From Mucilaginibacter sp. dw_454 (GTDB lineage: Bacteria > Bacteroidota > Bacteroidia > Sphingobacteriales > Sphingobacteriaceae), in contig NZ_JAAVVB010000004.1 of assembly GCF_018449775.1 (NCBI RefSeq), positions 62,001 to 126,000 of the forward strand: DNA of 64,000 nt, in the 5' to 3' direction. The translations under genes and the position numbers were made by a program. Below, in pieces: positions 15,008 to 36,477 of the stretch; the first letter of the stretch is position 1; each line of letters starts with the position of its first letter. The notes under the pieces are model-generated. The model saw nothing but the letters and a program-made list of their open reading frames with translations, was not told the DNA's origin and made no database searches.

Positions 15008-15308
15008 CAGATTCTTTAATTCCTTCTAAAATTAGTTTCTTATTAAAAGAGCCATTTGTTTTGGCTTTTTCTTCTTTTATGGCAGAAATCGATTTAGAAT
15101 CGTAATTATATTCTCCGACGATAGCATCAAGTATTTCATAAATATCGGCCAATTCTTCTTCCGAGGGGGCGCTTAAAAACTCATTAACCTCCTCCAGTAA
15201 TTTTTCATTTAATAATTGCCTTATTTCATGCTCGTTAGCAAGGTGAAATAATGGTATCTTCCCTGACCTACTTATAATTTCGGGTATATTATCTCTAACG
15301 AGTTTCAT
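15000..15308 (-). CDS. MazG-like nucleoside triphosphate pyrophosphohydrolase (cargo operon, gene 3)
   Basis: 102 residues beginning KLVRDNIPEIISRSGK, the hallmark of small house-cleaning NTP pyrophosphohydrolases. The metal-binding motif is present: Glu39-Glu40-x-x-Glu43 and Glu52-x-x-Asp55. Such enzymes convert an NTP to NMP and pyrophosphate, often acting on modified nucleotides. In this operon it may make or destroy a nucleotide used by the kinase, ThiL-like and HIT proteins. It starts 34 bp after the fusion gene. Confidence 0.75.
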   Translation of the reverse strand: MKLVRDNIPEIISRSGKIPLFHLANEHEIRQLLNEKLLEEVNEFLSAPSEEELADIYEILDAIVGEYNYDSKSISAIKEEKAKTNGSFNKKLILEGIKESDV

Positions 15309-15342
15309 TGGAATTAATAATTAAATACTTTAAAAGCTTTTA

Positions 15343-17622
15343 TCAAATAGGTGAAAGAAAATCATTTTTTAAATACTCTTTATATGCGTCTAATCCATTG
15401 CTGAAATAGGAATTAGAATTAAATCTTTTACTCCCGAAATCCTTTATTGTATAATCCACATCTTCTTTATGAATTCTCACATGACCATCGCCGGCAATAA
15501 CTTTTCCTAAAATATGGTACGGATTTTCCTTGAACACTTTTTGAAACTCTGGCAACATATTTGGAGAAATCGTGGTCACTAACTGCCATTCTCCCCAACT
15601 TAAGGCTATATTGACGAGATGATTAATTCCATAATGTTTTGCTGAATCAATAACACGCTGATCCAAGGATTCCAAAATCAGGGAAAAATCAAGATAAAAA
15701 TCAACCCCACTTTGCCCGGCAATTTCATAAAAACAACTGATTAAACCATCAGAACTGTCCATTCCACAGGATGTCAATCGGTTTTCAACGAGTAACAATC
15801 CTTCTTCGACTCTAGGTATCGGGCGATTTATTATTTTGTAAATTTCGTTATCACTAAAATACAACCTATCATTATAGTCTAATATTGCTGACCAGAAAAG
15901 CCCCATTGTGCCTATAACAATTATATAATCTCCATCGTGTGCCTGATTCCTCAACAATAGTTTATGTTTGCTCGTTTCACCGAAAATTGTTCCTGTAGAT
16001 AGAAATCGACTGCCATCTTTCACATTTCCACCAATTATGGGACAGCTAAAGAGTTCCGATATCTCTTTTACACCGGATAAAAATTTCTCAAATTCGATAA
16101 TGTGCATATCCTCGGGCATTTCCACAGATAATTGTATACCTATTGGCGCAGCCCCCATTGATGCCAAATCGCTTAAGTTGATTAATACTGAATACCAGCC
16201 ATAGATTGAGAAATCAAGGTCTCCTAGTAGCCAAGCAACAGGAAGCGGGCAGGGATCAGTAGATGCTATTACTAAATTGCTATCCTCTCTCAAGGAAAAT
16301 GCAGAACAATCATCGCCTTTGTCAATATATATCTGGGGAAACTTGTCATTTTTAAACGCTGGAAAAATATATTTCCTTACTATGCTCGTTTCGCCAATCT
16401 CGTTCAGCTTCTTAGATATTTCCGTATTTGATCCATATTCATTGCACAAAAAAATCAATGAGCTAACTAGGCCTCTTTTATCCACCTCTTCAAAGTTAGA
16501 AACGCCTAATAACCCCGTAGTCATTAGAATAACCGATCTCAAATATTCTGATTGAAATTTGCTTTCAGATATTGGAAGTTTTAATTTTTTGCAGGCGGAC
16601 ATATATTCTTCAAGCGCCAAAGCTCTGATATTTGATATTTGAATATAAAGTTCTTTGATTCTACGGTATTTAAATGGAGGGTTTGGAAGGTGGTTATTTA
16701 AACATTTTTCAAAAGTAAATATTTCATTATCTACCATTAGTGAAGTCAAATATTGAAATTTAATCGAGCACTCCAGAAGAGCATAATCTACAAGAAAATG
16801 CATATCACCTTTAGTCCATTCAAAATCTATGATCCAAGGTTGCTCTACATGGTCTTTTCCGTTTAATAGAATATTTCTTTGATGTAAATCTCCATGTATT
16901 ACCCGTGTTATAAAATCGTTAGTCTCTGATTTTATTTTCGTTATAACATTTACCGGATTATGGAATTTCCGTTCATTGTAAAAAACATATTCCTGATCTT
17001 CATTTTCGCAATTTAGAATAGATAATATTCTTTTTTTTGATCTTTCCCACCTCAAATACCAATCGTATTGAGAATTCCAGTCGGTTGAAATAATTTGATA
17101 ATCATTCATCCACTTTTTCAAATTCACTTTATAAACAGCGGTAATTACTGTTTTTATCTCATTATAAATCTTTTCTTCTGCATCGGGCACTCCCGAATTT
17201 TCCTCAATAAACGCCTGTTGGAAAAGTTCGTGGAGATTTAAAGTGTTGGCCTCTGCAAAAGATTTATATGGATAAGCTATCCCGGCATAAGCGGAATTTT
17301 CGTAAAATTCGATTGCTGTAGGTGCATGATCCAACGTATTATAAACATATTCTTTATAGCTTGCTTCTTCATTAGTCAATTTATCAATTAACTTACTCCC
17401 CCCTTTTCTTCGAGCTATTTTAAAAATTACTTTTTTCTTCTTTGCTCCAGTTGCGGTAGTTAAATAATCGATGATATAAATGCTAACACCAGAATACCCA
17501 ACCCTACTGAGTTTGTTATATGTAATCTCATTGATTGCTCCTAATTTACTTTTGAATTTTTTATTTAAAAATTCTTCGACAAATAGAAGATCATCATTGT
17601 CTACAGGTATAATTACTCCCAT
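15343..17622 (-). CDS. APH-like kinase fused to a ThiL/AIR-synthase-like domain (cargo operon, gene 2)
   Basis: 759 residues, two enzymes in one chain. Residues about 40-350 are an aminoglycoside-phosphotransferase/choline-kinase-like domain with the catalytic loop HGDLHQRN (243-250) and metal motif IDFEW (265-269). Residues about 411-715 are a ThiL/AIR-synthase-related domain: GDDCS (436-440), NLSDLASMGAAPIG (482-495), IIGGN (529-533, Asn where ThiL has GGD), GDYIIVIGTMG (564-574) and DSSDGL (622-627). Both sites look active apart from the Asn change. I know no characterised protein with this fusion. It follows the stand-alone ThiL-like gene by 5 bp. Base composition is clearly more AT-rich than the tra genes. 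Confidence 0.75.
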   Translation of the reverse strand: MGVIIPVDNDDLLFVEEFLNKKFKSKLGAINEITYNKLSRVGYSGVSIYIIDYLTTATGAKKKKVIFKIARRKGGSKLIDKLTNEEASYKEYVYNTLDHAPTAIEFYENSAYAGIAYPYKSFAEANTLNLHELFQQAFIEENSGVPDAEEKIYNEIKTVITAVYKVNLKKWMNDYQIISTDWNSQYDWYLRWERSKKRILSILNCENEDQEYVFYNERKFHNPVNVITKIKSETNDFITRVIHGDLHQRNILLNGKDHVEQPWIIDFEWTKGDMHFLVDYALLECSIKFQYLTSLMVDNEIFTFEKCLNNHLPNPPFKYRRIKELYIQISNIRALALEEYMSACKKLKLPISESKFQSEYLRSVILMTTGLLGVSNFEEVDKRGLVSSLIFLCNEYGSNTEISKKLNEIGETSIVRKYIFPAFKNDKFPQIYIDKGDDCSAFSLREDSNLVIASTDPCPLPVAWLLGDLDFSIYGWYSVLINLSDLASMGAAPIGIQLSVEMPEDMHIIEFEKFLSGVKEISELFSCPIIGGNVKDGSRFLSTGTIFGETSKHKLLLRNQAHDGDYIIVIGTMGLFWSAILDYNDRLYFSDNEIYKIINRPIPRVEEGLLLVENRLTSCGMDSSDGLISCFYEIAGQSGVDFYLDFSLILESLDQRVIDSAKHYGINHLVNIALSWGEWQLVTTISPNMLPEFQKVFKENPYHILGKVIAGDGHVRIHKEDVDYTIKDFGSKRFNSNSYFSNGLDAYKEYLKNDFLSPI

Positions 17623-17627
17623 AAAGG

Positions 17628-18680
17628 TTATGTTTTGATAATGTCTTTAATAATTTCCTGAATAGGTCTTTGATCAAATTTGACTCCAGGTAATGGACAG
17701 GAAGTTCCATATCGATCAATCATTATATTTTCACCCAAATTATTTACCTCTCCGATAACTATTAGTTTCGAGCCTATTTCACTAAATAGTCTCTCACATA
17801 ATTCTTTATTTTCTTTGGCTATAGTAAATGTCAACTCGAAGTCAACGGATGCACTTATCGCTATTGTTACCGGATTGATATTTAGAAATTCGGCAAGCCT
17901 TCTTGTTGCCGATTCGATGGGAATATTATTTTCGAATATAGTGAAGTATTTGCCACTTGCTTTGGAAAGCTGATCAATTGTCCCTTTCAGTCCATCGGAT
18001 ACATCCTGACAGGCGTTACCGATACTATTATCTGCCAATATCAGCCCTTCCTTAATTCTAGGTTCCGGACGCTTCCAGGATTGAAGAATAATCTCCTCTT
18101 CTTCTTTAGTCAACGTTAGTCCTAGTTGCCGAATTTCTTTGAAGTAAAGTAAAGCAGTAATAGGTTTACCAACAGTTCCGGTTAAACATAACAAATCACC
18201 ATCTCTCACATTTTTTCGCAACAATGCTTTTGCAGTATCTACAATACCCATAGCAGTGGCTGCAAAAACATCTGCTTTATAACTCCCTATGTCTCCTCCA
18301 ATAATCTGCACATCAAATCTATCGGCCGAGTCTTTCATTCCCTGAAAGACGGCCCTAAAATCTTCATCGTCCATGTCGGCATATCGCACTATCGTAGTTA
18401 GTCCAATAGGCTTTGCACCAACGGAGGCCAGATCACTTAAATTTGCGGAGATAAGATAGTAGCCAACGTCATAGTAATTCATATGACCTAAATGGAAGAG
18501 TGTAAAACCCGAACCCCGAACAAAATCACTAGAAACAGCCATTGATCGCTCTGAGTCGATTTTAATTAGTGCACAATCGTCCATGCTTTCAACACCTACA
18601 GGTAATAATTGAGATTTAGGGTAAGAGATAATTTGACCTATTATTTTAAATAAAGCTTCTTCGTTAGAAATGGATTTCAT
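17628..18680 (-). CDS. ThiL/AIR-synthase-related protein (cargo operon, gene 1)
   Basis: 350 residues matching thiamine-monophosphate-kinase/AIR-synthase architecture: MDDCA with Asp34-Asp35, SSDFVRGSGF, NLSDLASVGAKPIG (80-93), IIGGD (126-130), GDLLCLTGTVG (161-171) and DVSDGL (226-231). The ATP-binding and metal-binding acids are all present. True thiL is usually found singly with thiamine or NusB-type neighbours; here it heads a five-gene operon beside a second ThiL-like domain, so the substrate is probably not thiamine phosphate. A heterodimer with the fusion protein is possible, since this superfamily works as dimers. Confidence 0.75.
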   Translation of the reverse strand: MKSISNEEALFKIIGQIISYPKSQLLPVGVESMDDCALIKIDSERSMAVSSDFVRGSGFTLFHLGHMNYYDVGYYLISANLSDLASVGAKPIGLTTIVRYADMDDEDFRAVFQGMKDSADRFDVQIIGGDIGSYKADVFAATAMGIVDTAKALLRKNVRDGDLLCLTGTVGKPITALLYFKEIRQLGLTLTKEEEEIILQSWKRPEPRIKEGLILADNSIGNACQDVSDGLKGTIDQLSKASGKYFTIFENNIPIESATRRLAEFLNINPVTIAISASVDFELTFTIAKENKELCERLFSEIGSKLIVIGEVNNLGENIMIDRYGTSCPLPGVKFDQRPIQEIIKDIIKT

Positions 18681-19203: not shown

Positions 19204-20547
19204 TCACAGCTTTTTTCCCTTGCTTTTTCCTTTGTTTTTTTTGGATGGTAATTTCAAAAGCGCCCGGTTTACTTCATCGGCCACCGGCTTGTCGTCCAGA
19301 TCGTCCAGATATACATTGGTCTGCTGTTCGATTTCATGACCCAGTGCTTCTTTAATAATCGAGATATCGACACCGTTGTTTCTTAGATGCGTGGCAAATC
19401 CATGCCTTAACGAATAGCTGGTGAATTTTCTTTGCCATCCAACTGCTTCCGCCATTTCCTTGAGATCCTCATTAAAATCCTGTAACGCTGATTCTACGCG
19501 TTGGTCTATCTTTCTGGGCGTATTGTGGATAGCAAAAAGAAAAGGGAAAACATACCCCGCATCGCTTTTTACGGGGTATTCTTTCAGGAAGTAATTAACG
19601 ACTTCCATAGCCTGCGGATGCAATATATAATCGTATTCCCGATGGTTTTTTGAACGGGTATAATGGATAGTTCCGTTGCCAATGTCTTCCTTCTTCAGCT
19701 TGCACAGGTCGCCGAAGTTAATACCCCTGGCATAATAGGTAAACTGAAGAAGCTGATGGGAACGGAATTTACGGGTGTGAGGTTCAAAATCCAGCTCCAG
19801 TATCTTTTCCAGATAATCTTCTTTAATAGAACGCTTTTTGGTTCTTATCCGTTTGTACGGCTGGTATTTGATAAAATTGGAAGGATGATGTTTATCCCGC
19901 GTGCAGTAGCCGTCTTTGATAGCCATGTTCCATATCCGGTAGTAGGTTCTTAGATACAGGCTCTTTGTCGATTCGGTAGTGCCATCTGATATGAGCCATT
20001 CATATCTTTGGTGATCTTCTTTAGTGAAGCTGAGAAAAGATTTGTCCTTTTCTTTTTCGCGCTCTTCTTTGGAGATGAATTTACCGTTATTTAAAATCTT
20101 GCTCACTTTCGATCTCGTGCTATCGAATACATCCGCATAACCCGGATTGCCGGCCTCTTCCAGTCCGTTGATCACTTTATCAAAGTATTCCAGTATTTTT
20201 AACTGGCCGCGCTGCGTTAAAGGTACGTTCTCGCTGTGCGTTACTTTACGTTTGATGTCAAGGCAGTTCGGGTAATGTCCGGCTTTTTCAGCCACTTTCA
20301 GCTCAAATTGTATATCCTCCAGGTACTTGTTAATCTTGGCTGTTAACTCCCTGTAGTAGGGATGCGACGGATGAGGCAGCCTCAGCGTTTCATTCCAATT
20401 TTCAGGAGTTGAACTGTACCCAAGCGGTACGAATTCCTTTTCCTTCAATTGGGAAAGGCGTATTCGAACTTCGTATTCGCCTTCCTTAAATCGCAGTCCT
20501 GTTTTCTTTACAACGCGATATGTAAAAAGCATTGGGGTTACTTCCAT
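19204..20547 (-). CDS. Tyrosine recombinase / integrase
   Basis: 447 residues: N-terminal arm-binding region (1-100), SAM-like core-binding domain (about 110-230) and catalytic domain with Arg274 (YYARGINFGDL), Lys300, Arg381 (SLRHGFATHL), His404 (LGHE) and Tyr413 (TNVYLDDL). The first His of the HxxR box is replaced by Tyr (TSYSLRHG), as in many Bacteroidota integrases. It ends in a basic Gly/Lys tail (GKSKGKKL) like several neighbours. It faces away from the excisionase-like gene's start and lies 5.8 kb from the att-like end, an unusually large gap filled by the cargo operon. Confidence 0.92.
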   Translation of the reverse strand: MEVTPMLFTYRVVKKTGLRFKEGEYEVRIRLSQLKEKEFVPLGYSSTPENWNETLRLPHPSHPYYRELTAKINKYLEDIQFELKVAEKAGHYPNCLDIKRKVTHSENVPLTQRGQLKILEYFDKVINGLEEAGNPGYADVFDSTRSKVSKILNNGKFISKEEREKEKDKSFLSFTKEDHQRYEWLISDGTTESTKSLYLRTYYRIWNMAIKDGYCTRDKHHPSNFIKYQPYKRIRTKKRSIKEDYLEKILELDFEPHTRKFRSHQLLQFTYYARGINFGDLCKLKKEDIGNGTIHYTRSKNHREYDYILHPQAMEVVNYFLKEYPVKSDAGYVFPFLFAIHNTPRKIDQRVESALQDFNEDLKEMAEAVGWQRKFTSYSLRHGFATHLRNNGVDISIIKEALGHEIEQQTNVYLDDLDDKPVADEVNRALLKLPSKKNKGKSKGKKL

Positions 20548-20578
20548 GATCGGTATTCGTTGTGAACTCGCGCTTCAC

Positions 20579-20830
20579 TTATAGTTGGTTTAAGGCATTT
20601 TCTATTTCTTCGATGTTATAATAGCAGACTCCTCCAAGTTTGCGATATGGAATAATGCCTTTGTTCCTGAGCGTCTGCAAGGTGACTTCCGACATATCGA
20701 GCAATTCCATAACTTCGTGCGTTTTCAGCCATTTTTTTGGCTTATTTGTTCCTATAAGTTTTTCGATGTCTCTCAGCATTTTCAGACGGAAATCTTCAAG
20801 GTCCGCCACCGTCAGTATTTCTATTCCCAT
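20579..20830 (-). CDS. Excisionase-like MerR-type HTH protein
   Basis: 83 residues from ATG at 20830, chosen because it follows the methyltransferase stop by 4 bp and gives a normal-sized protein; the longer frame only overlaps the methyltransferase. WLKTHEVMELLDMSEVTLQ and LRNKGIIPYRKLGGVCYYN are the helix-turn-helix and wing of the HTH_17 family used as recombination directionality factors. It sits directly upstream of the integrase, with which it probably acts at the att sites. Confidence 0.82.
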   Translation of the reverse strand: MGIEILTVADLEDFRLKMLRDIEKLIGTNKPKKWLKTHEVMELLDMSEVTLQTLRNKGIIPYRKLGGVCYYNIEEIENALNQL

Positions 20831-20834
20831 GATG

Positions 20835-21773
20835 TTAAAGTTTAATTGATGAACTGATTCGTTCTTCCGCCAGCTGTATATAGCCAGGGTTGATCTCAAA
20901 TCCGATATATTGCCGGTTGAGCCTGGTGGCAGCCAATGCCGTCGTTCCGGCGCCCATAAAAGGATCGAGAACAATGTCACCTTCACGGCTTCCAGCTTTG
21001 AGGCATAGTTCGGGTAGCTCAGGCGGGAAAGCTGCAGAATGAGCGCCTTTAAACGGTACGGTAATGATGCTCCAGACCGATCTGCGGTTGGCGGTATCGT
21101 AAGGTCCTCGTTCTTTGCGGAAGCAGTTGACCAGCTTATTTTCCGGTGCTTTCCTGGCCATGCGGGAGGTTCTGTCTGCAATTGTTTTTCCTTTCGCCGG
21201 AGTTTTAATAGCGGTGTGATCGAAGTAATACTTTGGGCTTTTGGAGAACAGGAAAACATATTCGTGTGCTTTTGTGCAGCGATCGGTCACGCTTTCGGGC
21301 ATATGGTTCGGTTTATGCCAGATGATGTCCTGCCGGAGATACCAGCCTTGTTTCCGCAAAGCAAAGGCGACCATCCAGGGCAGGCCGATCAGGTCTTTGT
21401 TCTTGATCTCGGCATGTTTGCCGGTGGTGGGCTGGCCAAACCGCGCGATGTTTTTAGATGATTTGCCAAACTCCCGGTGTTTGGCCTGGTACGCCGAGTT
21501 TTTACCTGCCTTGCCGGAGCCCCAATAGGCATCCCCGAGGTTTAGCCAAAGGGTGCCCTCGGGTTTTAAGACCCGCTTGACCTCGCTAAATATTTCTGTT
21601 AACGCTTTTATGTATTCTTCCGGAGTATCTTCGGAGCCCAGTTGTCCGGCAACGCCGTAGTCGCGCAGCCGCCAGTAAGGCGGGCTGGTGATACAGCATT
21701 GCACAAAGTCATCCGGCAGGGATCTTAACCCCGTCAAACAGTCCGAATGGTATATTTGGTTTACTGCAATCAT
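20835..21773 (-). CDS. DNA methyltransferase, probably N4-cytosine type
   Basis: 312 residues. Catalytic motif TSPPYW at about 29-34 with the LRDYG extension, and the AdoMet motif DPFMGAGTTALAA with FEINPGYIQLAEERI near the C-terminus: the motif order IV...I of a beta-class enzyme. The S-P-P-Y form favours N4-cytosine methylation, though N6-adenine is possible. The middle contains a target-recognition region (LPWMVAFALRKQGWYLRQDIIW, WHKPNHMPESV). No restriction enzyme is adjacent, so it probably protects the element during transfer. Confidence 0.85.
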   Translation of the reverse strand: MIAVNQIYHSDCLTGLRSLPDDFVQCCITSPPYWRLRDYGVAGQLGSEDTPEEYIKALTEIFSEVKRVLKPEGTLWLNLGDAYWGSGKAGKNSAYQAKHREFGKSSKNIARFGQPTTGKHAEIKNKDLIGLPWMVAFALRKQGWYLRQDIIWHKPNHMPESVTDRCTKAHEYVFLFSKSPKYYFDHTAIKTPAKGKTIADRTSRMARKAPENKLVNCFRKERGPYDTANRRSVWSIITVPFKGAHSAAFPPELPELCLKAGSREGDIVLDPFMGAGTTALAATRLNRQYIGFEINPGYIQLAEERISSSIKL

Positions 21774-21812
21774 TCTCTCTCACTTTAATCTTTGCTCCAT
21801 TGCAGCGGCAGA

Positions 21813-22400
21813 TCACCGCAATCCTTTGCCGCGTCTTTTTATTTGTGTTTTTTTCTTCGGCAGACTATGATGATAGCCTTTCGATATGATGGACGCGACC
21901 TGTCTGTACGCTTCCTTCTTCGCTTTATCTTTCTCGTTCATTACATGGTTCCGGATGATCTCGCGGCAAAACTTCCCGATAAACGCATCATCTTCGATCC
22001 GGAATTTATTGCCATCGGCAGGATCGCGTAACAGCAGGGCGAGGATCAGTTTACCATCCTGCTCACGGTGTACCAGTTTCTGCTGCACGATCTCGACCGT
22101 TTTCAAACTCCCGTCACCGGCGCCATTGTAGATGCCGGGGTCAATTTTTACCGGCAATCCCCTGTTATAATCAGAGCGGCCAATATCTCCGAGAGGCAGT
22201 TTGTCTTCGTCCGGAAAGGGGAAGCGGAAACAAAAGCCCGAATCCGGCCGTGCATATTCTGCCGGTGCTGAGCTACCGTCCAGTTTGGACAGCAGCCCTG
22301 CTGCTAAGGCCCTGGAATATTTTTCGTAGGTTACATAGTAGAGATTATCCATCGTGCCGACTTTGATCTCGTTACCTTTATAATTCACATATTCTCCCAT
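21813..22400 (-). CDS. Conjugative-element protein of unknown function
   Basis: 195 residues, soluble, no family recognised. The C-terminus is strongly basic (KKKTQIKRRGKGLR), similar to the tails of several neighbours. It lies between the two methyltransferase genes, 4 bp from the DNA adenine methylase stop-to-start, in one operon. A part in DNA modification or in element transfer is possible but not shown. Confidence 0.5.
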   Translation of the reverse strand: MGEYVNYKGNEIKVGTMDNLYYVTYEKYSRALAAGLLSKLDGSSAPAEYARPDSGFCFRFPFPDEDKLPLGDIGRSDYNRGLPVKIDPGIYNGAGDGSLKTVEIVQQKLVHREQDGKLILALLLRDPADGNKFRIEDDAFIGKFCREIIRNHVMNEKDKAKKEAYRQVASIISKGYHHSLPKKKTQIKRRGKGLR

Positions 22401-22404
22401 AGTG

Positions 22405-23217
22405 TTAAATAGGTTTGTCCAAGGGATAGTTGGCAGTCAATACTTCCGTCTTCTTTTTGGGGTTACCGCCTTTGGCGTTGACCGTTACAAACAACTCTCT
22501 TTTTATCGAATGCCAGCCATTTTCCTTGATGTACCGGTCGAGTATATCAGTTGGATAGGACGACAAGAGGAATTTGCCTTTTATGCCCGCTAAGAGGCGC
22601 AACAGCGCCTCGTAATCGGCATCCGTGTAGCCTTTGTAATGACCGCAGTTGGAGCCGATATAGGGCGGATCGCAGTAAAAAAATGCGCCTTCGTGATCCC
22701 GGCTTTGGATGATATATAAGGCGTCGGCATGCTCGATCTGCACCATTTCCAAACGCCTGGTATATTCCTCCGTAAAATTGTTCCGCTTGTTGGCGATGCG
22801 CTTGGAGGTGGTGTTGTCGGTCTTGTCAAAACCGAAGGGGCCGTCCATCTTGGCCGAGAAAGCCTGCGCGCAGATCACCCAGACGGCCCAAGCCCGTCTG
22901 ACCTCATCGAACAGGTCGGGGTTGTTATAAATGACCTCAGCCTGCCGGAAGGAGTTCCGGCAGTGCAGGGTTCGCTGAATCATCTTTTGCAGCGGCGCGA
23001 ACTGATCCCGGGTGACCAGGTAGAAATTCATGAGCTCGCCGTTGGTGTCATTGATCACTTCCGTTTTTGACGGCGGCTTGTGAAAGAATATGGCGCCGCC
23101 GCCCGTAAATGGCTCGGCATAAAGGATGTGCTCGGGAATCAGCGAGATGATTAAAGGCGCTAGGTTTTGCTTTCCGCCGTAATAGGTTAATGGCGGTTTC
23201 ATTTTCTTTTGTTCCAT
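22405..23217 (-). CDS. D12-class DNA adenine methylase (Dam-like)
   Basis: 270 residues. N-terminal AdoMet motif YYGGKQNLAPLI and AEPFTGGGAIFF, then the helical D12 target domain, and the catalytic DPPY in YCDPPYIGSN at about 178-186: the alpha-class order of Dam/DpnM enzymes. Translation may start at Met6 (MKPPLTYYGGK). Stand-alone; no cognate nuclease nearby. Together with the neighbouring methyltransferase it gives the element two independent methylation marks. Confidence 0.9.
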   Translation of the reverse strand: MEQKKMKPPLTYYGGKQNLAPLIISLIPEHILYAEPFTGGGAIFFHKPPSKTEVINDTNGELMNFYLVTRDQFAPLQKMIQRTLHCRNSFRQAEVIYNNPDLFDEVRRAWAVWVICAQAFSAKMDGPFGFDKTDNTTSKRIANKRNNFTEEYTRRLEMVQIEHADALYIIQSRDHEGAFFYCDPPYIGSNCGHYKGYTDADYEALLRLLAGIKGKFLLSSYPTDILDRYIKENGWHSIKRELFVTVNAKGGNPKKKTEVLTANYPLDKPI

Positions 23218-23253
23218 ACTTCACGTTATCTTGTTCACGAAAATGAGAGGCGG

Positions 23254-24231
23254 TCAGATCGACCGGCCTTTATTTTTGCCCGGCTTTCGCCTTGGGCCGG
23301 TTATTTTGGGTAGCAGTTTAACCTGCCGGGGTTGGTTTGGTAAAAACTCGTTCAGTTCAATCTTCTCCAGTTTACTGTTATATAGCGCCAGCGATTGTTC
23401 ACGCGGATTGGCTTCTATAAAGGCAGACACCAGCAGGTTGTCTTTGAGGAGGCTGACCGGGGAACGTTCTCCCCGGATCAGGTCGTAGATCAGTTGCGGC
23501 CCGGTGCGGTCCAGTTGCATTTCCGTTATTGGCAATTGCTTCAGCAGCTTCATAAAATCATAGTCAGGCAACTTTATAAGCTTTCCATTGTCAATTGCCT
23601 TCCAATGGGTATAAAGATTCGTAGGCTCATTCTCCTTCTGATAGAATTTCAGCACACCTCTGCCGGATAGCAGGTTATAAGCCTCTCTGGCAGAGATATC
23701 TGAAAAGTCGCCTTTGAGATCGAAGTGCCGCGTTTTTTCATAATCGGGCGCATAGGTTGTCACCTGCAAATGCTTTTCGATGGGCGTATTCAGCCAGTAA
23801 CGCAGTTTCAATCGCCTGGCAATATCTTTAGCCTGATGACTATGGTTCAGCGACAGCTCGAAAACATCGTCGAAGATTTTGCTGACCTTCGAATCACCTG
23901 CCATGACCTGCTGAACGTAATTTTGCCAGTCAGTGCCCTTCATCCGTTTTTCCAGCTCCGATGTATCGATCTCACCGAATTTCCCATGCGGTATGGGATG
24001 TGTTTTTAACAACATCGCCTGGTAGGATTCCGGGAATAGCTCTCCGGTTTCTTCCCGTCGTTTAATGGTCAGCTGATAGTTCATCAGGTCATCGCCGATC
24101 CTTTCCTGCTGCCGGAGAAGAATAATATCAGTATCTCCAAAACTTTCCAGGTAACTATACAGATCAGGCCGGTGAAAGCCTAACTCAACCAAGCTGGCCA
24201 TCAGCCTGTCGAGATTTTCGGCTTCGTTCAT
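23254..24231 (-). CDS. DUF3945-like conjugative-element protein with basic tail
   Basis: 325 residues, soluble. A segment IGDDLMNYQLTIKRREETGE and a later ISAREAYNLLSGRGVLKFYQ segment line up with IGEDDVNYKLHFRRDDER and ITAMEAYRLLTHGELVAV of the protein at 24802-25596, so the two are distant paralogues of the type often labelled DUF3945/DUF4099. The last residues are KPGKNKGRSI, a tail shared with two further neighbours. Biochemical role unknown. Overlaps the next upstream gene by 4 bp. Confidence 0.55.
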   Translation of the reverse strand: MNEAENLDRLMASLVELGFHRPDLYSYLESFGDTDIILLRQQERIGDDLMNYQLTIKRREETGELFPESYQAMLLKTHPIPHGKFGEIDTSELEKRMKGTDWQNYVQQVMAGDSKVSKIFDDVFELSLNHSHQAKDIARRLKLRYWLNTPIEKHLQVTTYAPDYEKTRHFDLKGDFSDISAREAYNLLSGRGVLKFYQKENEPTNLYTHWKAIDNGKLIKLPDYDFMKLLKQLPITEMQLDRTGPQLIYDLIRGERSPVSLLKDNLLVSAFIEANPREQSLALYNSKLEKIELNEFLPNQPRQVKLLPKITGPRRKPGKNKGRSI

Positions 24232-24515
24232 GACTTATTTTCAATGAGAGGCTTTGGCTTTGCCGGTTGTTTTTTGGCGGCGGTGCCTGGCATTTGCTGC
24301 ATGGCTCTTTCAAAGCCGATCCACTGGCCCTTATCATTGACCCCCCGTTCGCGCAATTGCATGCGAACAAGCGTGGCGAGGTTGAACTCCTTGCCTAATA
24401 ATTTTACCAGCAAGTTGGTGCTGGTGGTAGAAAACAGGAAAAGCGGGTTTTCCTCGTTGGGCAGGCTGCCGTCTTTGGCTGCCTGCTTGTATTTATTGAT
24501 CTGTTCCGTTGTCAT
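24228..24515 (-). CDS. Small element protein, paralogue 1 of a tandem pair
   Basis: 95 residues. TEQINKYKQAAKDGSLP, LFLFSTTSTNLLVKLLGKEF and GQWIGFERAMQ match the downstream-numbered neighbour (24532-24789) along the whole length, so the pair arose by duplication. No known domain. Its C-terminus (PKPLIENKS) lacks the KGx tail of its paralogue. In the operon between the two DUF3945-like genes. Confidence 0.5.
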   Translation of the reverse strand: MTTEQINKYKQAAKDGSLPNEENPLFLFSTTSTNLLVKLLGKEFNLATLVRMQLRERGVNDKGQWIGFERAMQQMPGTAAKKQPAKPKPLIENKS

Positions 24516-24531
24516 GGTTCATTTATTAGAG

Positions 24532-24789
24532 TTACAAATGCTTCCCTTTTTTCCGGGCAGGCGTTTTCCTGCCCAACTGCCGGTTAAAGCCGACCCATTC
24601 GCCTTTCAAATTCAGCCCACGATTTTCCAGTTCCATTTTTGCCAGTTCCGCAAAGCTGAACTCCTTATTCAGTCCCATAACCAGTAACTTGGTAGAAGAA
24701 ATAGAAAAAAGGAATATGGGATTGTCATAGTCGGGGATAGTACCGTCTTCGGATGCCTGCGTGTATTTTTTAATTTGCTCCGGTTTCAT
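24532..24789 (-). CDS. Small element protein, paralogue 2 of a tandem pair
   Basis: 85 residues: KPEQIKKYTQASEDGTIP, IFLFSISSTKLLVMGLNKEF, and LKGEWVGFNRQ, each aligning with the 24228-24515 product. It ends ARKKGKHL, resembling the KG-x-x-L/I tails of the integrase and other neighbours. Function unknown; a shared N-terminal helix and the small size suggest a DNA- or protein-binding adaptor, which is inference. Confidence 0.5.
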   Translation of the reverse strand: MKPEQIKKYTQASEDGTIPDYDNPIFLFSISSTKLLVMGLNKEFSFAELAKMELENRGLNLKGEWVGFNRQLGRKTPARKKGKHL

Positions 24790-24801
24790 CGGCTGCTGGG
24801 T

Positions 24802-25596
24802 TTAGATCGACATCCCCTTCCGCTGGTTCTTCGACTCCCAGTTCACCCGCTGGTTCTCCCAGGGCTTTTTTTTTAGATCGTCCTGGTTTTGTCCGGGCGT
24901 TTCTGCTTTGAGTTCGGCCTTTTGCTGCTGCCTTTCCACGAGCCGCATGTCCTGGTCATAAAGATCGACCCGGCCGATCTTAGGGTTAACGGCCAGCGTG
25001 CCGCTGGTTTGCTCGCCGTTAACCATAATCGTAACCGGCACCAGGTTGGCCTTTTTCAGCGATTTCTCTATCCTTTCCAGCGTTTGCGGATTCTCCAGTT
25101 CCTTCACAGGTACGGACAGTTTTTTCAGCGAATCCTTCAGTTCAAAAGGCTGTTTCTGGTAATAGTTCTCGTGGTAGCTGTTGACCGGATAATTGTTATA
25201 ATCGTCCTTCTTGCCGGTTGTGTCGATGCTGATCCAGGTATTGTACTGCTGGCCTTCCTTATTGTAGAGGTTCTTGTTAACGGCCACCAGTTCGCCGTGC
25301 GTAAGCAGGCGGTAAGCCTCCATAGCGGTGATCAGCTTCTCGGTCGGGAAAGTATGCTCGGTTACCTTCCTGTCCGGGTTGGTAATGGCGACATCATATT
25401 TATTAAAATAGACTTTGTCGCGTTCATCGTCCCGGCGGAAATGCAGTTTATAATTGACATCGTCTTCGCCGATCTTTACTGCATGTTCCAGTTGGAATTC
25501 CGGCTTCCCGGATTTGATCGCTTCATCTAATTGGCTGTTCAGGCTTTCACCGAATCCTTTGCGGTATAAGCCTTCTTTTAATTCTTCTGTGTTCAT
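24802..25596 (-). CDS. DUF3945-like conjugative-element protein with basic tail
   Basis: 264 residues. It has IGEDDVNYKLHFRRDDER (about 42-60), AYRLLTHGELVAVNKNLYN and then a TIMVNGEQTSGTLAVNPK beta segment with VDLYDQDM, as in DUF3945-type proteins of Bacteroidota elements. The C-terminal 45 residues are hydrophilic and end NQRKGMSI. Distant paralogue of the 23254-24231 product. Role unknown; such proteins are common next to Tra and topoisomerase genes. Confidence 0.6.
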   Translation of the reverse strand: MNTEELKEGLYRKGFGESLNSQLDEAIKSGKPEFQLEHAVKIGEDDVNYKLHFRRDDERDKVYFNKYDVAITNPDRKVTEHTFPTEKLITAMEAYRLLTHGELVAVNKNLYNKEGQQYNTWISIDTTGKKDDYNNYPVNSYHENYYQKQPFELKDSLKKLSVPVKELENPQTLERIEKSLKKANLVPVTIMVNGEQTSGTLAVNPKIGRVDLYDQDMRLVERQQQKAELKAETPGQNQDDLKKKPWENQRVNWESKNQRKGMSI

Positions 25597-25616
25597 AATC
25601 CCTTGTTTTTTAGTTT

Positions 25617-26138
25617 TTAAATCGACCGGCCTTTCCGGTGCTTTTTTGATCGGTTGTTTTTCTGCCGGTTGTTTTGATGCGCGTATTTGGACACGGGCGT
25701 CATCTGCCTTACAGTAGCCTGTTGTTGCTGTTGCTGTTCTGGCTTCGTGTCGCGTCCCAGTGGCGGCAGGTTAACGGCCTGCCGGTTAGCCTGCTCGCGG
25801 TTGATGGTTACGTTTTCCCGGTTACCGGTCCACATGGCCCTTAACCTTGCGCGTCCCCGGTGCAGTATTCTCCGCAATAATCCCGGATACAGCGAACGTT
25901 CCATTTTTCGACGCTGGAAGCGCAGCATGGTCATCATGGCCTTTTCATCGGGCGTTTGCGCCTTGCCGTTATATTTGTAATAAAGCTGATCGTAGTTTTC
26001 CAGCTTCATCTTCAGGAACTCGCGGTCTTTGAGTGCCTCCTGCCCGAACAGCGCCCCGAACTTGTTCTCCTGCTGATTCCAGTTACTGAGTTCGCTCATC
26101 AGCGTTTCCGGCCTGGACGTTTGCAATGCGTTTTCCAT
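25617..26138 (-). CDS. Conjugative-element protein with Gln tract and basic tail
   Basis: 173 residues. The N-terminal half is helical and charged (REFLKMKLENYDQLYYKYN, DEKAMMTMLRFQRRKMER); the C-terminal half is low-complexity with a run of six Gln, then Asn/Arg/Lys-rich sequence ending SKKHRKGRSI, nearly the tail of the 23254-24231 product. No known domain. Immediately downstream of traN in the same direction, so part of the transfer operon. Confidence 0.5.
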   Translation of the reverse strand: MENALQTSRPETLMSELSNWNQQENKFGALFGQEALKDREFLKMKLENYDQLYYKYNGKAQTPDEKAMMTMLRFQRRKMERSLYPGLLRRILHRGRARLRAMWTGNRENVTINREQANRQAVNLPPLGRDTKPEQQQQQQATVRQMTPVSKYAHQNNRQKNNRSKKHRKGRSI

Positions 26139-26150
26139 AGGGCCCGGTGT

Positions 26151-26981
26151 TTAGTGCACAAGCGTTTTTGCCTGCAGGAGCTTGTCCTGGTCCAGTTTGC
26201 AGGTTGGGTTACGGTCACCGCCCTGTTCCATCAGTTCGGTCACGAAGTTCTTATTTTCGGCTATAGTGAACTTTGCGAAAGCCGCCACGATGGTTTCTCC
26301 TTTATCATTTTCGGCAGTTCCCGTATGTTGTACATAGAGCGGCGATATTTCCTTATCCTGTTCGGCGGTTCTTTTGGCTTTATCCTTGTCGCGGATGTAG
26401 AAGCGGAGAGAACCGGTATCGTAGCGGATGGCGGTGGTATTCTTTACCTTGTAGCTGAAGAACAGCACATCGTCCTTGATATAGATACCGTCCAACCTGA
26501 AATCCATACCGTGCTTACGGTAATGAACACCATTTAAAAACGGATAGCTGCCGGTTACGATGCCCGCATAATCTTCCAGTTGCCTGCTGTTCAGCGAAAC
26601 GCCATCAAACGTAGCAGCCGCAAATGGCGGCTGTTTGCGCAAATCGACGGTCTGGTAAGCGGGCTGATCGGCATAGCTCACATTAAAATCGTAAACGTTG
26701 CCCTCAGCGGTGATCACATGCAGGTTGCTCGGCTCAAATCCTTTCTGGCCTGCTTTCACTTTAAGTGCGTTATCCACACCTTTTACCTTCTCGGCCAGTA
26801 CATATTTGTCGCCGCGGTCTGCGCTTTGAATGGCCGCCGGAAAGATCAGCAAGGTCGTTTTATGCGTGGTGATATCGAGGTGGTAAGACGGCAATACAGC
26901 TTTGCTGCTGATGCTGTCGGTTTGCTGCGCCGTGGCGCTCAGGGAGGCGCATAGCGCCGCTATAATCAGTAAGTATTTCAT
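26151..26981 (-). CDS. traN: Conjugative transposon protein TraN (VirB9-like, DUF4138)
   Basis: 276 residues with a signal peptide (1-18, ending SATAQ). The beta-rich body begins YHLDITTHKTTLLIFPAAIQSADRGD, a hallmark of Bacteroidota TraN, with later VYDFNVSYAD and FFSYKVKNTTAIRYD strands. TraN is the periplasmic/outer-membrane core-complex component equivalent to VirB9. Follows traM by 19 bp in the tra operon. Confidence 0.88.
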   Translation of the reverse strand: MKYLLIIAALCASLSATAQQTDSISSKAVLPSYHLDITTHKTTLLIFPAAIQSADRGDKYVLAEKVKGVDNALKVKAGQKGFEPSNLHVITAEGNVYDFNVSYADQPAYQTVDLRKQPPFAAATFDGVSLNSRQLEDYAGIVTGSYPFLNGVHYRKHGMDFRLDGIYIKDDVLFFSYKVKNTTAIRYDTGSLRFYIRDKDKAKRTAEQDKEISPLYVQHTGTAENDKGETIVAAFAKFTIAENKNFVTELMEQGGDRNPTCKLDQDKLLQAKTLVH

Positions 26982-27000
26982 GTTTAAATGTTTAATTTGA

Positions 27001-28194
27001 TCAATTGCCTGAATCCTGTTTCGCTTTGCCGTCGAGCAACAGCACCGGGTAACCGGCTTTTACCGTTACCCTGACCAGCTTGACCTTTTTACTGGCAAAA
27101 CCTTTGACCGCTTCCAGACCCGCGCTGGCGGCCTGCGCGCCCAATGAAGGGTCAAGGCTCATGAGCTGCATGCTCTGCACGCCGCGGTCTGCACCTTCTT
27201 TACTGGCATCGCGGCCAATGGCACCTGGCACCCGGATGCCCTCCAGCGCATCCAGGTCATAAACAGACAGTCCGACTGGAAAGACACTGTTATTATACCG
27301 GATACCCGTAATGCTGATCTTTAGCCTTTCGCCGTCGATGTTACAGCTGCCGTACACAAAGTTGTTTTTGGGGATCAGTGTACCGTTGACCATCACGTCT
27401 TCGGTCAGGCGTAATTTGATGGTGGCGCCGGTTGTGACCGTTTGCGTTTCCTGTACTACGGCAGGTATCGCCGGCAATGCGGATGAGTCGGCAACGGCGT
27501 TATCATCCAGGCCATAAAAGCCGGTCGTTGTAAATCCGCTATGCGGTATTTCGTCCGGGCCGGTGACCGGGTAAACGCGACCTTTATTTTTCAGGGATTG
27601 CTGGCGTAGTTGCTGCTGCAGGCGTTCCGGATGCTGGATATCGAGCACTTTTTCCAGCATGGCGTTCATCTGCTGCATTTGCGGGTCCGGTTCGTTATTT
27701 CCGCTCAGTTGCTGCATGGATTGCTGCAAACGGGCGAGCTGCGCGTCGATGGCGGGATCATGGGCATTATTTACAGGAGTAGGTTGTGACTGTGGCTGAT
27801 TTAAACTTTGTTCTAATTGTGCCAGCTTTGTTCGCACCTTGGCTTCATTAGGGTCGGAATAATTAGGGCCTGTTATACCGCCATGCTTCAGGTGGCTGGT
27901 ATCGGTCTTGCCGGGAATGGTATCACCGGCAAACGGGTCGCGGCTCAATTGGTTTTTTAAGTTTTGAGAATCGATGGCGGCCTTGTTATACAAACTCATC
28001 TTGTCCAGCGAAGCGCCGGAAAGTTGTGGGGATGGCAGGGATGTGTTAATGCCCGGCTTTTCCTGCGCCTGGGCCTGGTTTACGCCCTTCCCGCCGCCCA
28101 GCGACCAGAATGCCAGCGTTACGAAGGGTAAGGCCAGCAAGGGTAGTACCAGCAGGGCTTTTCTTTTTTTGAGGTATTTTTCTGAATGTTCCAT
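27001..28194 (-). CDS. traM: Conjugative transposon protein TraM (VirB10-like)
   Basis: 397 residues: short cytoplasmic N-terminus, one TM helix (about 13-31: LLVLPLLALPFVTLAFW), a long Pro/Gln-rich periplasmic linker (about 35-200) and a C-terminal beta-barrel-type domain with GATIKLRLTEDVMVNGTLIPKN and NNSVFPVGLSVYDLDALEG. This is the architecture of VirB10-like TraM, which spans the envelope and links the inner-membrane channel to the outer pore. Confidence 0.88.
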   Translation of the reverse strand: MEHSEKYLKKRKALLVLPLLALPFVTLAFWSLGGGKGVNQAQAQEKPGINTSLPSPQLSGASLDKMSLYNKAAIDSQNLKNQLSRDPFAGDTIPGKTDTSHLKHGGITGPNYSDPNEAKVRTKLAQLEQSLNQPQSQPTPVNNAHDPAIDAQLARLQQSMQQLSGNNEPDPQMQQMNAMLEKVLDIQHPERLQQQLRQQSLKNKGRVYPVTGPDEIPHSGFTTTGFYGLDDNAVADSSALPAIPAVVQETQTVTTGATIKLRLTEDVMVNGTLIPKNNFVYGSCNIDGERLKISITGIRYNNSVFPVGLSVYDLDALEGIRVPGAIGRDASKEGADRGVQSMQLMSLDPSLGAQAASAGLEAVKGFASKKVKLVRVTVKAGYPVLLLDGKAKQDSGN

Positions 28195-28202
28195 AAGGAT
28201 TT

Positions 28203-28529
28203 TTATTGGTGATTAAATTTTTGAATGCTGTCTTTAGGGCGCACGGTCGGTGGCGGCTTGGTAACCGGCGGAACGTGGCCAAAGGATAGCGGTATATTCG
28301 CTTTTCCGGACAAGGCATGAAAAAACAGATGGCTGCACCAGGCGCTGCATAGCATACAGAAGAGCAAAAACAAGATTTTCTTCTGCGCAACCGAATACCG
28401 ACGTTCGCATTGTTGCAGCAAACGCACTATGCATTGCTGCAGCGCAATGATCTTTTCCGCGATTATCCGGGCAATAGCATCCCTGTAAGGCCGCGATTGC
28501 TGCTCCTTTTTAGTTTTTAATTTCCACAT
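28203..28529 (-). CDS. Small tra-operon membrane protein (TraL position)
   Basis: 108 residues with one TM helix (about 51-70: ILFLLFCMLCSAWCSHLFF), a basic cytoplasmic N-terminus and a Pro-rich periplasmic tail. It occupies the place of traL between traK and traM in related elements. Sequence of this gene varies much between elements, so the name is not assigned. Gap to traK is 4 bp. Confidence 0.6.
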   Translation of the reverse strand: MWKLKTKKEQQSRPYRDAIARIIAEKIIALQQCIVRLLQQCERRYSVAQKKILFLLFCMLCSAWCSHLFFHALSGKANIPLSFGHVPPVTKPPPTVRPKDSIQKFNHQ

Positions 28530-28533
28530 CGCT

Positions 28534-29151
28534 TTATCTTTTTTGCAGGTCTTTGTCGTTGTTTTCGAGTATGCGCCAGCGTTCTATCAGGAAGCCGTGC
28601 GCATTGTTTTCGCTGCGGCTGACGTTACGCAGGTAGCCCTCTGTGACCAGGCTCCGCGTGACGATGGCCGTGGGCCGGACGATCTTTTCGGTCGCATAGT
28701 ATTTGAAATAATAAGGATAGTTCTGCAGGTTCAGCTGGACGCTGTCTATATCCACCTGCTGGCTGATATTTCCCGCGATGACCGATGAATAATAGCCGTT
28801 TTCCTTCAGGTCTTCGTATTGCTTTTGCGCAGTAGCGTCCGCGAGATAAAGCGCCTGTTTAATATTGTTGTCGATCACTTTATCGTCCGGGTCGAGCGTA
28901 AAGAAATAGTAGTGGAACATCTTGATATGATCGCGCGCTTCCACATCCACGTTATCCTTGCGTTCGGCCGATAAAGCGGACAGAGCTTTTCCGTTAGCCA
29001 GCAGATAAATCCGTCCCTGCGCTTTGCTTACCATTTTGTAGCTTTCGGTTACCGTATAGCAACAGATGGCCATAGCAGCGGCGATCAGCACAAAGGTGAA
29101 CAGCCTGACGTGCTTGAATGCGGTTTCGATATTTTTGAATTGTTGAAACAT
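28534..29151 (-). CDS. traK: Conjugative transposon protein TraK (VirB8-like)
   Basis: 205 residues: N-terminal TM helix (about 18-36: LFTFVLIAAAMAICCYTV) and a periplasmic NTF2-like domain with EARDHIKMFHYYFFTLDPDD and the VTEGYLRNVSRSENNAHGFLIERW segment, which is typical of TraK. TraK corresponds to VirB8, an inner-membrane assembly factor of the secretion channel. Confidence 0.9.
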   Translation of the reverse strand: MFQQFKNIETAFKHVRLFTFVLIAAAMAICCYTVTESYKMVSKAQGRIYLLANGKALSALSAERKDNVDVEARDHIKMFHYYFFTLDPDDKVIDNNIKQALYLADATAQKQYEDLKENGYYSSVIAGNISQQVDIDSVQLNLQNYPYYFKYYATEKIVRPTAIVTRSLVTEGYLRNVSRSENNAHGFLIERWRILENNDKDLQKR

Positions 29152-29161
29152 ACTACCTCCT

Positions 29162-30169
29162 TTAAATTAATGCTTTTGCTGCCGTGCCTGCCGCCGAAGC
29201 GCCTGCGGATGCGCCCTGGCCGGACATATTGGAAACTTTGTGCAGCAAGGTATCCTTGCCACCGGGTTGTATAATATAACCGGCTACGGTCGGCACGGTA
29301 AAATAGCCCACAATGGCGATGATCATAAAGACGACATAGACCGAACTTGAATAGAAATCCTGGTCCTGCGTGATCATATTAGCCAGAATCGTAGAGATAA
29401 TGCCTCCGAAGATATTAGCTACCGGCAGCCACATATAGACATGTACGTAGCGGGCGAACCAGCTGGCAAGCGTATGCTGGAAACCATCGAATACGCTCAG
29501 GCCCAAAACCAGCGGGCCTAAGATGGCCAGGACGATTAAGTAGAACGTGCGTATCGTATTAATGCACAAGGAAGCCGCTTCATACAGTATCTGCACCACG
29601 TTCTTAATAAAGCTCTGAAACATGCTCTTTAACCCGAAGAATCCGAAGGTGCTGCCCATGTCATTTGACTGGCCATTGGCGGCCGTCGTGCCGTCCGGCT
29701 GCTGGTATTTCTCATAGTTATTATCCTGCCCGCTATTATAAATTCCGGGCGGTGTTTGCGTTGCAGCTTTGGCTTCCTGCTGCAAATGCCAGGTGATCGC
29801 ATCCTGGCTGTGCTGTCCCATCGCGGCGGTAGCTGCAACGGTCGGTGACAGTACACCATTCATCAAATTGATCAGTGCAGGAAAACCGGCAATGGCGATG
29901 CCGATGGCAAATGGCCGCAACAAAGGATAAAAGTCGATGGCTTCTGCACGCGCCAGATGTTTCCATACCCGCAGGGCGATATACCATAGGGCGGCAAAGC
30001 CTGCTATGGCGCGTCCTACGTCAATCAGCTGGCTGCATAAGGGCAACATCTGGTTAAATAGCTTATCCAACTCACCGTTCAGACCGGTGACTTCGGCGCC
30101 AAATCCCTGCGCATTTGAGAGCATCGGCACCAGCAAAAAAGCTACGGCTAAAACCATGATCTTTTTCAT
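29162..30169 (-). CDS. traJ: Conjugative transposon protein TraJ (VirB6-like)
   Basis: 335 residues: signal peptide (1-20), then several TM helices (about 50-70, 85-110, 195-220, 240-260, 275-295). Typical TraJ signatures are LDKLFNQMLPLCSQLIDVGRAIAGF near the start, DFYPLLRPFAIGIAIAGFP and WFARYVHVYMWLPVANIFG. TraJ corresponds to VirB6, the polytopic inner-membrane part of the channel. The C-terminus is small-residue-rich (GASAGASAAGTAAKALI). Confidence 0.9.
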   Translation of the reverse strand: MKKIMVLAVAFLLVPMLSNAQGFGAEVTGLNGELDKLFNQMLPLCSQLIDVGRAIAGFAALWYIALRVWKHLARAEAIDFYPLLRPFAIGIAIAGFPALINLMNGVLSPTVAATAAMGQHSQDAITWHLQQEAKAATQTPPGIYNSGQDNNYEKYQQPDGTTAANGQSNDMGSTFGFFGLKSMFQSFIKNVVQILYEAASLCINTIRTFYLIVLAILGPLVLGLSVFDGFQHTLASWFARYVHVYMWLPVANIFGGIISTILANMITQDQDFYSSSVYVVFMIIAIVGYFTVPTVAGYIIQPGGKDTLLHKVSNMSGQGASAGASAAGTAAKALI

Positions 30170-30215
30170 ACTATATTCTATTTAAATGTTTTACTCCGGT
30201 TTATTTTAAGGCTTA

Positions 30216-30848
30216 TTACTGCGGAACATATAGTTGCTGCAGACTTTTCGAATCCTGCTGCTGACGCGCCCGCTGTGTGTCCAGGGCGGCCTGCCGGTTA
30301 TTGAAGCTCCGTAAAAAGGAAAGCTTATCCTGCATGTCCTTGTCGATCCCGTCAATTTGCCGTAAGCGCTCGTCATCGCTCATCCGCAGCTGGCTGGATG
30401 TCATGACCATGGTCAGCGCACTTAAATTGTTGACGCTTTGGTTGAACAGGTTTTTATAAACCGTTCCCATATAGCTGATCTCTGTCGGCGTAAACCGGCC
30501 GCCGTTTTTGAAGCTGCTGTAAGCCGATTTGTATTCCGACAAAATGGTTTCCTGGCAGGTGATGATCTGCGCTACCCGGCTGTAAGCTTTTAAAGGGGGA
30601 CTTATTGCCAATAGTCCGTTCAGGAAACTCTGGTGCAGGTTGAACGTGCCCTGCGAAATGCCGCTGATCGTGGAATAACCCGAGCTGATAACGTCATAAC
30701 CCTTTTTCATATCGGCCAGTATCTGCTTGAACTGGGCCAGCTTTTCAATGTCCAGCGTCAACTGTTCAATGTCCTGCGCCTGACCGAATGCTTTATCAGA
30801 AAGCCCGAGACCCAGCATAATGATCAATACATAGATTAACTTTTTCAT
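30216..30848 (-). CDS. TraI-family conjugal transfer protein, paralogue 1
   Basis: 210 residues from ATG at 30848, chosen because it starts a clean signal peptide (MKKLIYVLIIMLGLGLSDKAFG); the longer frame adds 21 charged residues. Coiled-coil-prone helical protein with FTPTEISYMGTVYKNLFNQS, DDERLRQIDGIDKDM and the closing QDSKSLQQLY, aligning with the products at 31906 and 32571. These are periplasmic TraI-type proteins of Bacteroidota elements (sometimes misnamed TerB tellurite resistance). VirB5-like function is inference. Confidence 0.7.
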   Translation of the reverse strand: MKKLIYVLIIMLGLGLSDKAFGQAQDIEQLTLDIEKLAQFKQILADMKKGYDVISSGYSTISGISQGTFNLHQSFLNGLLAISPPLKAYSRVAQIITCQETILSEYKSAYSSFKNGGRFTPTEISYMGTVYKNLFNQSVNNLSALTMVMTSSQLRMSDDERLRQIDGIDKDMQDKLSFLRSFNNRQAALDTQRARQQQDSKSLQQLYVPQ

Positions 30849-30965
30849 ATCCTGTTTTAATTGTCGTTCCCATCCACGCCGCCGTCCGGCGGCATCCAGT
30901 TGTAGCTGCATATTGCAGCCTGGCCATTACCTTATGTTATCTTTTTTCATTTGTCTGCATTCCGT

Positions 30966-30998
30966 TCTTCCCAAACCCGCGATGCGGGTTTGGGAAGA
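30966..30998. repeat. Perfect 33-bp hairpin between tra paralogues
   Basis: Two 15-bp arms (30966-30980, 30984-30998; TCTTCCCAAACCCGC and its complement) around a 3-base loop. It lies between the PP-loop gene (stop at 31023) and the first TraI paralogue. It lacks a T run on the minus strand but has TTTGTTTC after it on the plus strand. It could block or slow read-through, stabilise mRNA ends, or mark the edge of an inserted gene. Confidence 0.6.
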
Positions 30999-31022
30999 TT
31001 TGTTTCGCTTTCGTCCTTGCCT

Positions 31023-31856: not shown

Positions 31857-31905
31857 CATATCGCCTTCACTTATTGTTATCACTATTTTTATACCGGCTA
31901 TCCGC

Positions 31906-32559: not shown

Positions 32560-32570
32560 TGTCTTAACTT

Positions 32571-33251: not shown

Positions 33252-33262
33252 GGTCTTATTAT

Positions 33263-36461: not shown

Positions 36462-36477
36462 CGTTCATCATTTTTTA

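Follow-up and report, generated by a model that had tools for sequence, protein, structure and literature searches.

A basic C-terminal tail shared by relaxases and accessory proteins of a Mucilaginibacter conjugative element: a putative recognition tag for type IV secretion

The window analysed here, a 64,000-nucleotide stretch that is part of a contig of the 4.7 Mb genome of the soil bacterium Mucilaginibacter sp. dw_454, contains from position 19204 onwards a conjugative element at whose integrase end several genes encode proteins that terminate in much the same way, with a disordered linker, a basic run and an end-piece of the form [KR]-G-(hydrophobic or R)-(S/N/G/K/H)-[L/I/V]-COOH. Versions of this tail, aligned independently of each other and anchored at the C-terminus, occur on the relaxases of sister elements and on an unrelated protein family that these elements also carry. 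Conjugative type IV secretion has the relaxase as its canonical substrate and, since this protein, which is expected to travel, shares its tail with accessory proteins, a substrate tag is the most economical reading. Judging from the sequences, the tail is thus probably a C-terminal recognition tag of the type IV secretion system (T4SS) pathway of the element, that would mediate both docking to the coupling protein and translocation.

Occurrence of the tail in the element and in its host

A preliminary description of this DNA had pointed to five proteins encoded within 19204-26138 that end K-G-x-x-[LI], to a sixth (the 21813 product, named like the others after its first position) with the similar basic end GKGLR, and to the lack of the tail in the neighbouring methyltransferases. 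All these open reading frames (ORFs, called mechanically as the longest, non-overlapping ones) and their tails are present as described, on the - strand (Table 1), and the methyltransferases encoded at 20835-21773 and 22405-23217 do end differently (SSSIKL and LDKPI, respectively); the tail is likewise absent from the helix-turn-helix (HTH) protein and from the Tra proteins of the element. Beyond the window, beside the relaxase of the same element, a 536-aa and a 219-aa protein are also tailed. That the carriers are unrelated or only distantly related holds for the integrase and the 25617 and 24532 products, which are independent, and less well for the 23254, 24802 and 536-aa proteins; these have a common domain, recognizable by weak similarity, and therefore count as one carrier. 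The independent carriers of the window are the integrase, the 24802-like domain family, the 25617 product and the 24532 product, with the 21813 product as a near-match.

The frequency of the tail was compared with a host background of 601 ORFs of at least 80 residues taken from ~700 kb of the genome. The strict motif [KR]G..[LI]$ is found in seven of ~61 ORFs of the element versus a single host ORF (Fisher p ~3e-7), in which it lies in an acidic context (NKGKGPKGENL); an equal frequency in chromosomal proteins, the first point named earlier as speaking against the proposal, is therefore not observed. Basic tails of the host end mostly in K/R or some other residue, a hydrophobic end being present in one case out of 11, ribosomal protein S11 as judged by sequence.

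Essentially the same picture is obtained with a 12-position score matrix trained on the relaxase tails of other elements, the element's own relaxase and that of the closest relative being excluded. The nine highest scores among 57 ORFs of the element belong to the 536-aa protein, the 25617 product, the own relaxase, the 23254 product, the integrase and the 219-aa, 24532, 24802 and 21813 proteins, and five of these nine outscore all host ORFs. At least 3 bits are reached by nine of the 57 element ORFs versus two of the 601 host ORFs (p ~7e-9). Individually, the tails of the 25617 product (14.2 bits), the 23254 product (12.9) and the integrase (12.8) are exceeded by no host ORF and that of the 24532 product (9.2) by one, while the 3.1 bits of the 21813 product are attained by two. 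The register matters: with the matrix frame shifted by one residue, the window proteins score 4.5 bits instead of 10.9. Among phage ORFs, five out of 370 lie above the host 99th percentile, which is approximately the background level.

Conservation on relaxases and spread to other proteins

Relaxases, identified by PF03432, were sought within 40 kb around other Tra regions; the sister relaxases ending in NKRKKKRKGHSL, QRKRKKKRRGHSL and QNKRKKRRKGNSL carry the exact motif, the ends of sister relaxases including KKKRKGHSL, RKKKKRKGFNL and KRKRKGRSL. Wider samples added the ends TRKKKKRKGFNL, FKKKKRKGLNL, KQNKRRKKRRGRSL and RRKKRKRKGRSL, and the relaxase of an annotated Runella plasmid ends KTSKGLRL. 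Among relaxases from 80 named loci, a charge of at least +5 within the last 14 residues is present in 69 out of 70 and the exact motif [KR]G..[LI]$ in 22 out of 70. When 18 relaxases are aligned, the ~60 residues preceding the tail are seen to be poorly conserved, the basic run and the end being retained.

The profile of 65 non-redundant relaxases has L, I, V or M in 51% of cases at position -1 and in 35% at -3 (background ~23-26%), G in 25% at -4 and K/R in 62-91% from -5 to -12. The corresponding profile of 41 non-redundant 24802-like proteins has 66% and 54% hydrophobic residues at -1 and -3, 32% G at -4 and a mostly basic remainder. The two profiles agree in having a hydrophobic residue at -1, a small or polar one at -2, another hydrophobic one at -3, an enrichment of G at -4 and then the basic run.

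Within the family comprising the 24802, 23254 and 536-aa proteins, the tail has a charge of at least +4 in 32 of the 41 non-redundant members and an L/I/V/M end in 27. Homologues of the 24802 product were found in 46 out of 100 relatives, most of them retaining a basic tail that is a close variant, such as the ends KKQSRKSKMSV, KKQTRKKGMSV and KSKRKGVGV in other Mucilaginibacter. In the closest relative, the homologue of the 536-aa protein (52% identity) has the last 12 residues identical but encoded with synonymous codon changes; the homologue of the 219-aa protein retains KGRGI with an altered linker, and a distant homologue of the 25617 product, in locus L320, has a basic tail. Conservation on other elements, the second point on which the earlier proposal was made to depend, is therefore seen in the 24802-like family and in the 219-aa protein, and fails in the integrase, whose close homologues lack the tail; a tail as a general trait of element integrases was accordingly rejected. 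The integrase tail is lineage-specific and would be either a recent recruitment or an exception. The 24532 product is present in this genome only, among 101 Mucilaginibacter genomes, and its adjacent paralogue (24228-24515), 48.9% identical to it, has no tail.

These data bear on the possibility that the basic C-terminus was merely kept by descent or arose by coincidence, low-complexity Lys/Arg tails being easily generated in mobile DNA. The common domain of the 23254, 24802 and 536-aa proteins and the nearly identical GRSI codons of the 23254 and 25617 genes speak in its favor, but at least four unrelated families carry the tail in one element, the tails persist while the linkers diverge, the codons of the other genes differ, and the tail is almost absent from host ORFs and at about background level in phage ORFs, so that we regard this explanation as highly unlikely. 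A DNA repeat as the source of the shared ends was rejected, in that the tail codons vary from gene to gene.

In a survey of 170 protein families of such elements, each represented by at least three distinct tails, strongly basic C-termini were found in the relaxases (94% of 97), the 24802-like proteins, a CHC2/Toprim primase and a ~1640-aa Eco57I/SNF2 methylase-helicase; some other families with such ends, which are regulators, MobC or membrane proteins, were not retained, and chance or membrane topology was held to explain the tails seen in a proline dehydrogenase cluster and in membrane proteins of the DUF4133 type. Annotated plasmids of Prevotella, Parabacteroides and Flavobacterium encode DUF4099/DUF3945 proteins with the ends KKSRGRKM, KKSKGMKM and KSKGVKLK. 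Across the Bacteroidota, the carriers thus include relaxases, DUF3945/DUF4099-type proteins, the primase and the methylase-helicase, whereas most of the T4SS machinery is devoid of the tail.

The proteins of the window resemble the DUF3945/DUF4099 proteins of Bacteroidota conjugative elements in having similar tails but, unlike them, fall below the Pfam thresholds of these families; the 23254 and 24802 products match no Pfam family at E values up to 0.1, DUF3945 (PF13101) and DUF4099 (PF13351) included, and a Pfam search with the 21813 product was also without match. A search of the genome contigs with the 23254 protein gave no match. As to the 24802 product, the best phmmer match is FtbO (E 0.006) and the predicted model is folded from residue 1 to 231 and disordered from 232 to 264, where the tail is located; the folded part has no convincing match among solved structures (lowest Foldseek E value 0.025, with the top matches at a TM of ~0.2 or less).

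A putative secretion tag and the alternatives to it

Charged C-termini are known T4SS signals (PMC3297438, PMC10025392) and, in Agrobacterium, a positive C-terminal charge is established as such a signal on substrates that include the relaxase MobA (PMC3297438, PMC10025392). The tail described here is comparable to the VirB/D4 signal of VirF, VirE2 and RSF1010 MobA in being located at the extreme C-terminus, in its net positive charge and in its presence on relaxase and accessory proteins alike (PMC3297438, PMC10025392), but differs from it in being Lys-rich, in having a G-x-x-hydrophobic end and in belonging to a Bacteroidota Tra system, for which translocation is predicted. The Agrobacterium-type pattern R-x7-R-x-R-x-R was found in none of 13 proteins of the window and element, none of 97 relaxases and none of 28 24802-like proteins. 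Systems of the F plasmid type deliver proteins alongside DNA, possibly aiding plasmid establishment (PMC8406263, PMC11288057), and the transfer of Cre is generally supported by positively charged C-termini (PMC11288057, PMC8406263). The set of carriers recalls the conjutome of F plasmid pED208, in which proteins of DNA metabolism and establishment pass through the conjugation channel (PMC11288057, PMC8406263); however, the substrates of pED208 are described as having diverse signals, whereas here a single short motif recurs. C-terminal recruitment signals are also known from the Bartonella BID domain with its charged tail, Xanthomonas XVIPCD and Legionella Dot/Icm (PMC10025392). The ~12 disordered residues considered here contrast with BID and XVIPCD, which are conserved domains of larger size, and Pfam revealed no domain of either type in the tailed window proteins.

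If the tail is a tag, it may be read by the YWFCY/TraG-type type IV coupling protein, or by an adaptor associated with it, in the way VirD4 recognizes VirB/D4 substrates by their charged C-termini. Through its tail, the relaxase would be recruited along with the DNA strand bound to it; the remaining tagged proteins would be recruited likewise and sent into the recipient to aid establishment by DNA processing, priming, methylation and, in the present element, possibly integration.

The same basic ends could instead bind to the relaxosome or to DNA, either single-stranded or of oriT, acting in the cytoplasm of donor or recipient and not as an export signal. In line with this explanation, most of the carriers take part in DNA processing (relaxase, integrase, primase, methylase-helicase) and Lys/Arg abound in the run; yet it does not account for the hydrophobic last residue nor for the C-terminally anchored G and hydrophobic positions in two unrelated families, the basic tails of the host have mostly other ends, and the methyltransferases and the HTH protein of the element, that also bind DNA, are tail-less. 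We consider this alternative rather unlikely. Distinctly unlikely, in our view, is that the tail serves docking without export, holding accessory proteins at the coupling protein or the relaxosome of the donor for substrate processing or regulation of transfer, with the relaxase alone traveling: the same sequence evidence fits, 24802-like genes usually adjoin traM/traN and a few coupling proteins have similar ends, but an integrase or a primase would presumably be of more use in the recipient. Finally, tail-specific proteases and PDZ-type readers are known to recognize a hydrophobic residue at the C-terminus, and the tail could be read by a protease, a chaperone or a membrane site governing turnover or localization of element proteins; this offers no reason for the sharing with relaxases or for the restriction to conjugative elements, and is barely credible.

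Several observations weigh against a secretion tag. The element's own relaxase, although scoring 14.2 bits and having the basic run, ends RRLLAG and not KGxxI. Substrate-like ends (KGMRL, MRGLQI and KRSLSL) are found on a few coupling proteins themselves (L295:11262-13274, L306:11202-13274 and L357:11271-13313) and tail-like ends on a ~145-aa family of the tra region. Basic tails could stem from another cause, most known carriers binding DNA, and the step from tag to delivery into recipients is one that we infer. The translocation signal proposed in the preliminary description, with the integrase among its carriers, is thus strengthened by the occurrence of the same motif on relaxases of related elements and weakened where the integrase is concerned; the case for delivery of this protein appears less strong than for the other tailed proteins, because its homologues at ~50% identity lack the tail.

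In a second Tra lineage (L058, L386 and L387, from Mucilaginibacter and Sphingobacterium plasmids) both the relaxase and its partners have Arg in place of the hydrophobic last residue (RINTR, QSRGRGR, YQRSR). The similarity of relaxase and partner ends within elements gave a permutation p of 0.02-0.03 with pairs assembled by hand and kinship ignored, so that co-variation within elements is only suggestive, and a Bacteroides ovatus plasmid, with QRRI on the relaxase and RGRKR on the DUF3945 protein, departs from this pattern.

The element, its surroundings and the implications of the tail

From 19204 on, the element comprises the integrase (Pfam Phage_integrase, 7e-19, plus Arm-DNA-bind_5 and SAM_5), then a group of small genes, then the Tra genes with TraN, the gene of the TraG-type ATPase and that of RteC; most of these genes lie on the - strand. 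About 55 kb along the contig from the integrase are a YWFCY/T4SS-DNA_transf coupling protein, the relaxase (PF03432) and a MobC-like protein. The constituents of a Bacteroidota conjugative transposon, namely TraG-type ATPase, TraN, relaxase, YWFCY coupling protein, tyrosine integrase and RteC, are therefore all present. A search for flanking att repeats yielded no direct repeat of at least 14 bases in the stretch searched, and the window contains no tRNA.

Table 1. Tailed proteins and neighboring features of the element; coordinates are those of the window, except where the prefix L004 denotes a part of the same element beyond it
Feature	Coordinates	Strand	C-terminal end or other remark
Tyrosine integrase	19204-20547	-	ends KSKGKKL; tail KKNKGKSKGKKL encoded at 19207-19242
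21813 product, 195 aa	21813-22400	-	near-match tail IKRRGKGLR, encoded at ~21816-21851; ends RRGKGLR
23254 product, 325 aa, 24802-like family	23254-24231	-	tail PGKNKGRSI at 23257-23292
Tail-less paralogue of 24532 product	24228-24515	-	ends IENKS; overlaps start of 23254 gene
24532 product, 85 aa	24532-24789	-	tail ARKKGKHL at 24535-24570; ends RKKGKHL
24802 product, 264 aa	24802-25596	-	tail NQRKGMSI at 24805-24840; ends QRKGMSI
25617 product, 173 aa	25617-26138	-	tail RSKKHRKGRSI at 25620-25655
Conjugative T4SS (Tra) block	26151-36822	-	products without tail
TraN (DUF4138)	26151-26981		within Tra block; PF13595, 4.4e-54
TraG-type ATPase	33263-35794		within Tra block; TIGR03783, over cut-off
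536-aa protein	L004:12205-13815		beside relaxase; ends KRKGRGL
219-aa protein	L004:13812-14471		beside relaxase; ends KKGRGI

Some further genes deserve mention. Between the Tra genes of the transfer operon, 31023-31883 encodes what by eye looks like a PAPS-reductase-type enzyme. On the host side, the operon at 13639-18680 appears, again by eye, to encode two SelD/ThiL/AIR-synthase-like proteins, one of them apparently fused to a kinase-like domain, as well as HIT-like and MazG-like proteins. In the part of the element beyond the window, a C5-cytosine methylase adjoins an HNH protein (L004:14672-16811), likely a restriction-modification pair beside the mobilization genes, and a 929-aa protein (L004:5507-8296) has both an RNase H-like domain and a transposase domain of the IS66 type. 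In Flavobacterium and Tenacibaculum plasmids (L055, L057), proteins of 3016 and 2127 aa are encoded after traN/traO in the transfer operon; the very large Tenacibaculum plasmid protein bears a type IX secretion system sorting annotation.

C-terminal T4SS signals are known as a class. No substrate signal for a Bacteroidota T4SS was found in the open-access literature searched, most subscription journals being outside this coverage, and the Bacteroidota go unmentioned in a 2025 review of T4SS mechanisms; within this literature, the motif appears to be undescribed, as do its phylum and the proteins that carry it. As a possibility that we advance only tentatively, conjugation in the Bacteroidota might use one short C-terminal address tag, fixed first on the relaxase and then recruited onto many proteins, to ship an establishment kit that in this element would include the integrase, so that integration could start before expression of the incoming genes.

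The T4SSs of the Bacteroidota spread genes widely among gut and soil bacteria. Should the tail be the tag proposed here, the proteins delivered in Bacteroidota conjugation would become predictable from sequence, uncharacterized families such as the DUF3945/DUF4099-like, 173-aa and 219-aa proteins would acquire a role open to testing, and experiments could address directly which proteins accompany the DNA in this phylum.
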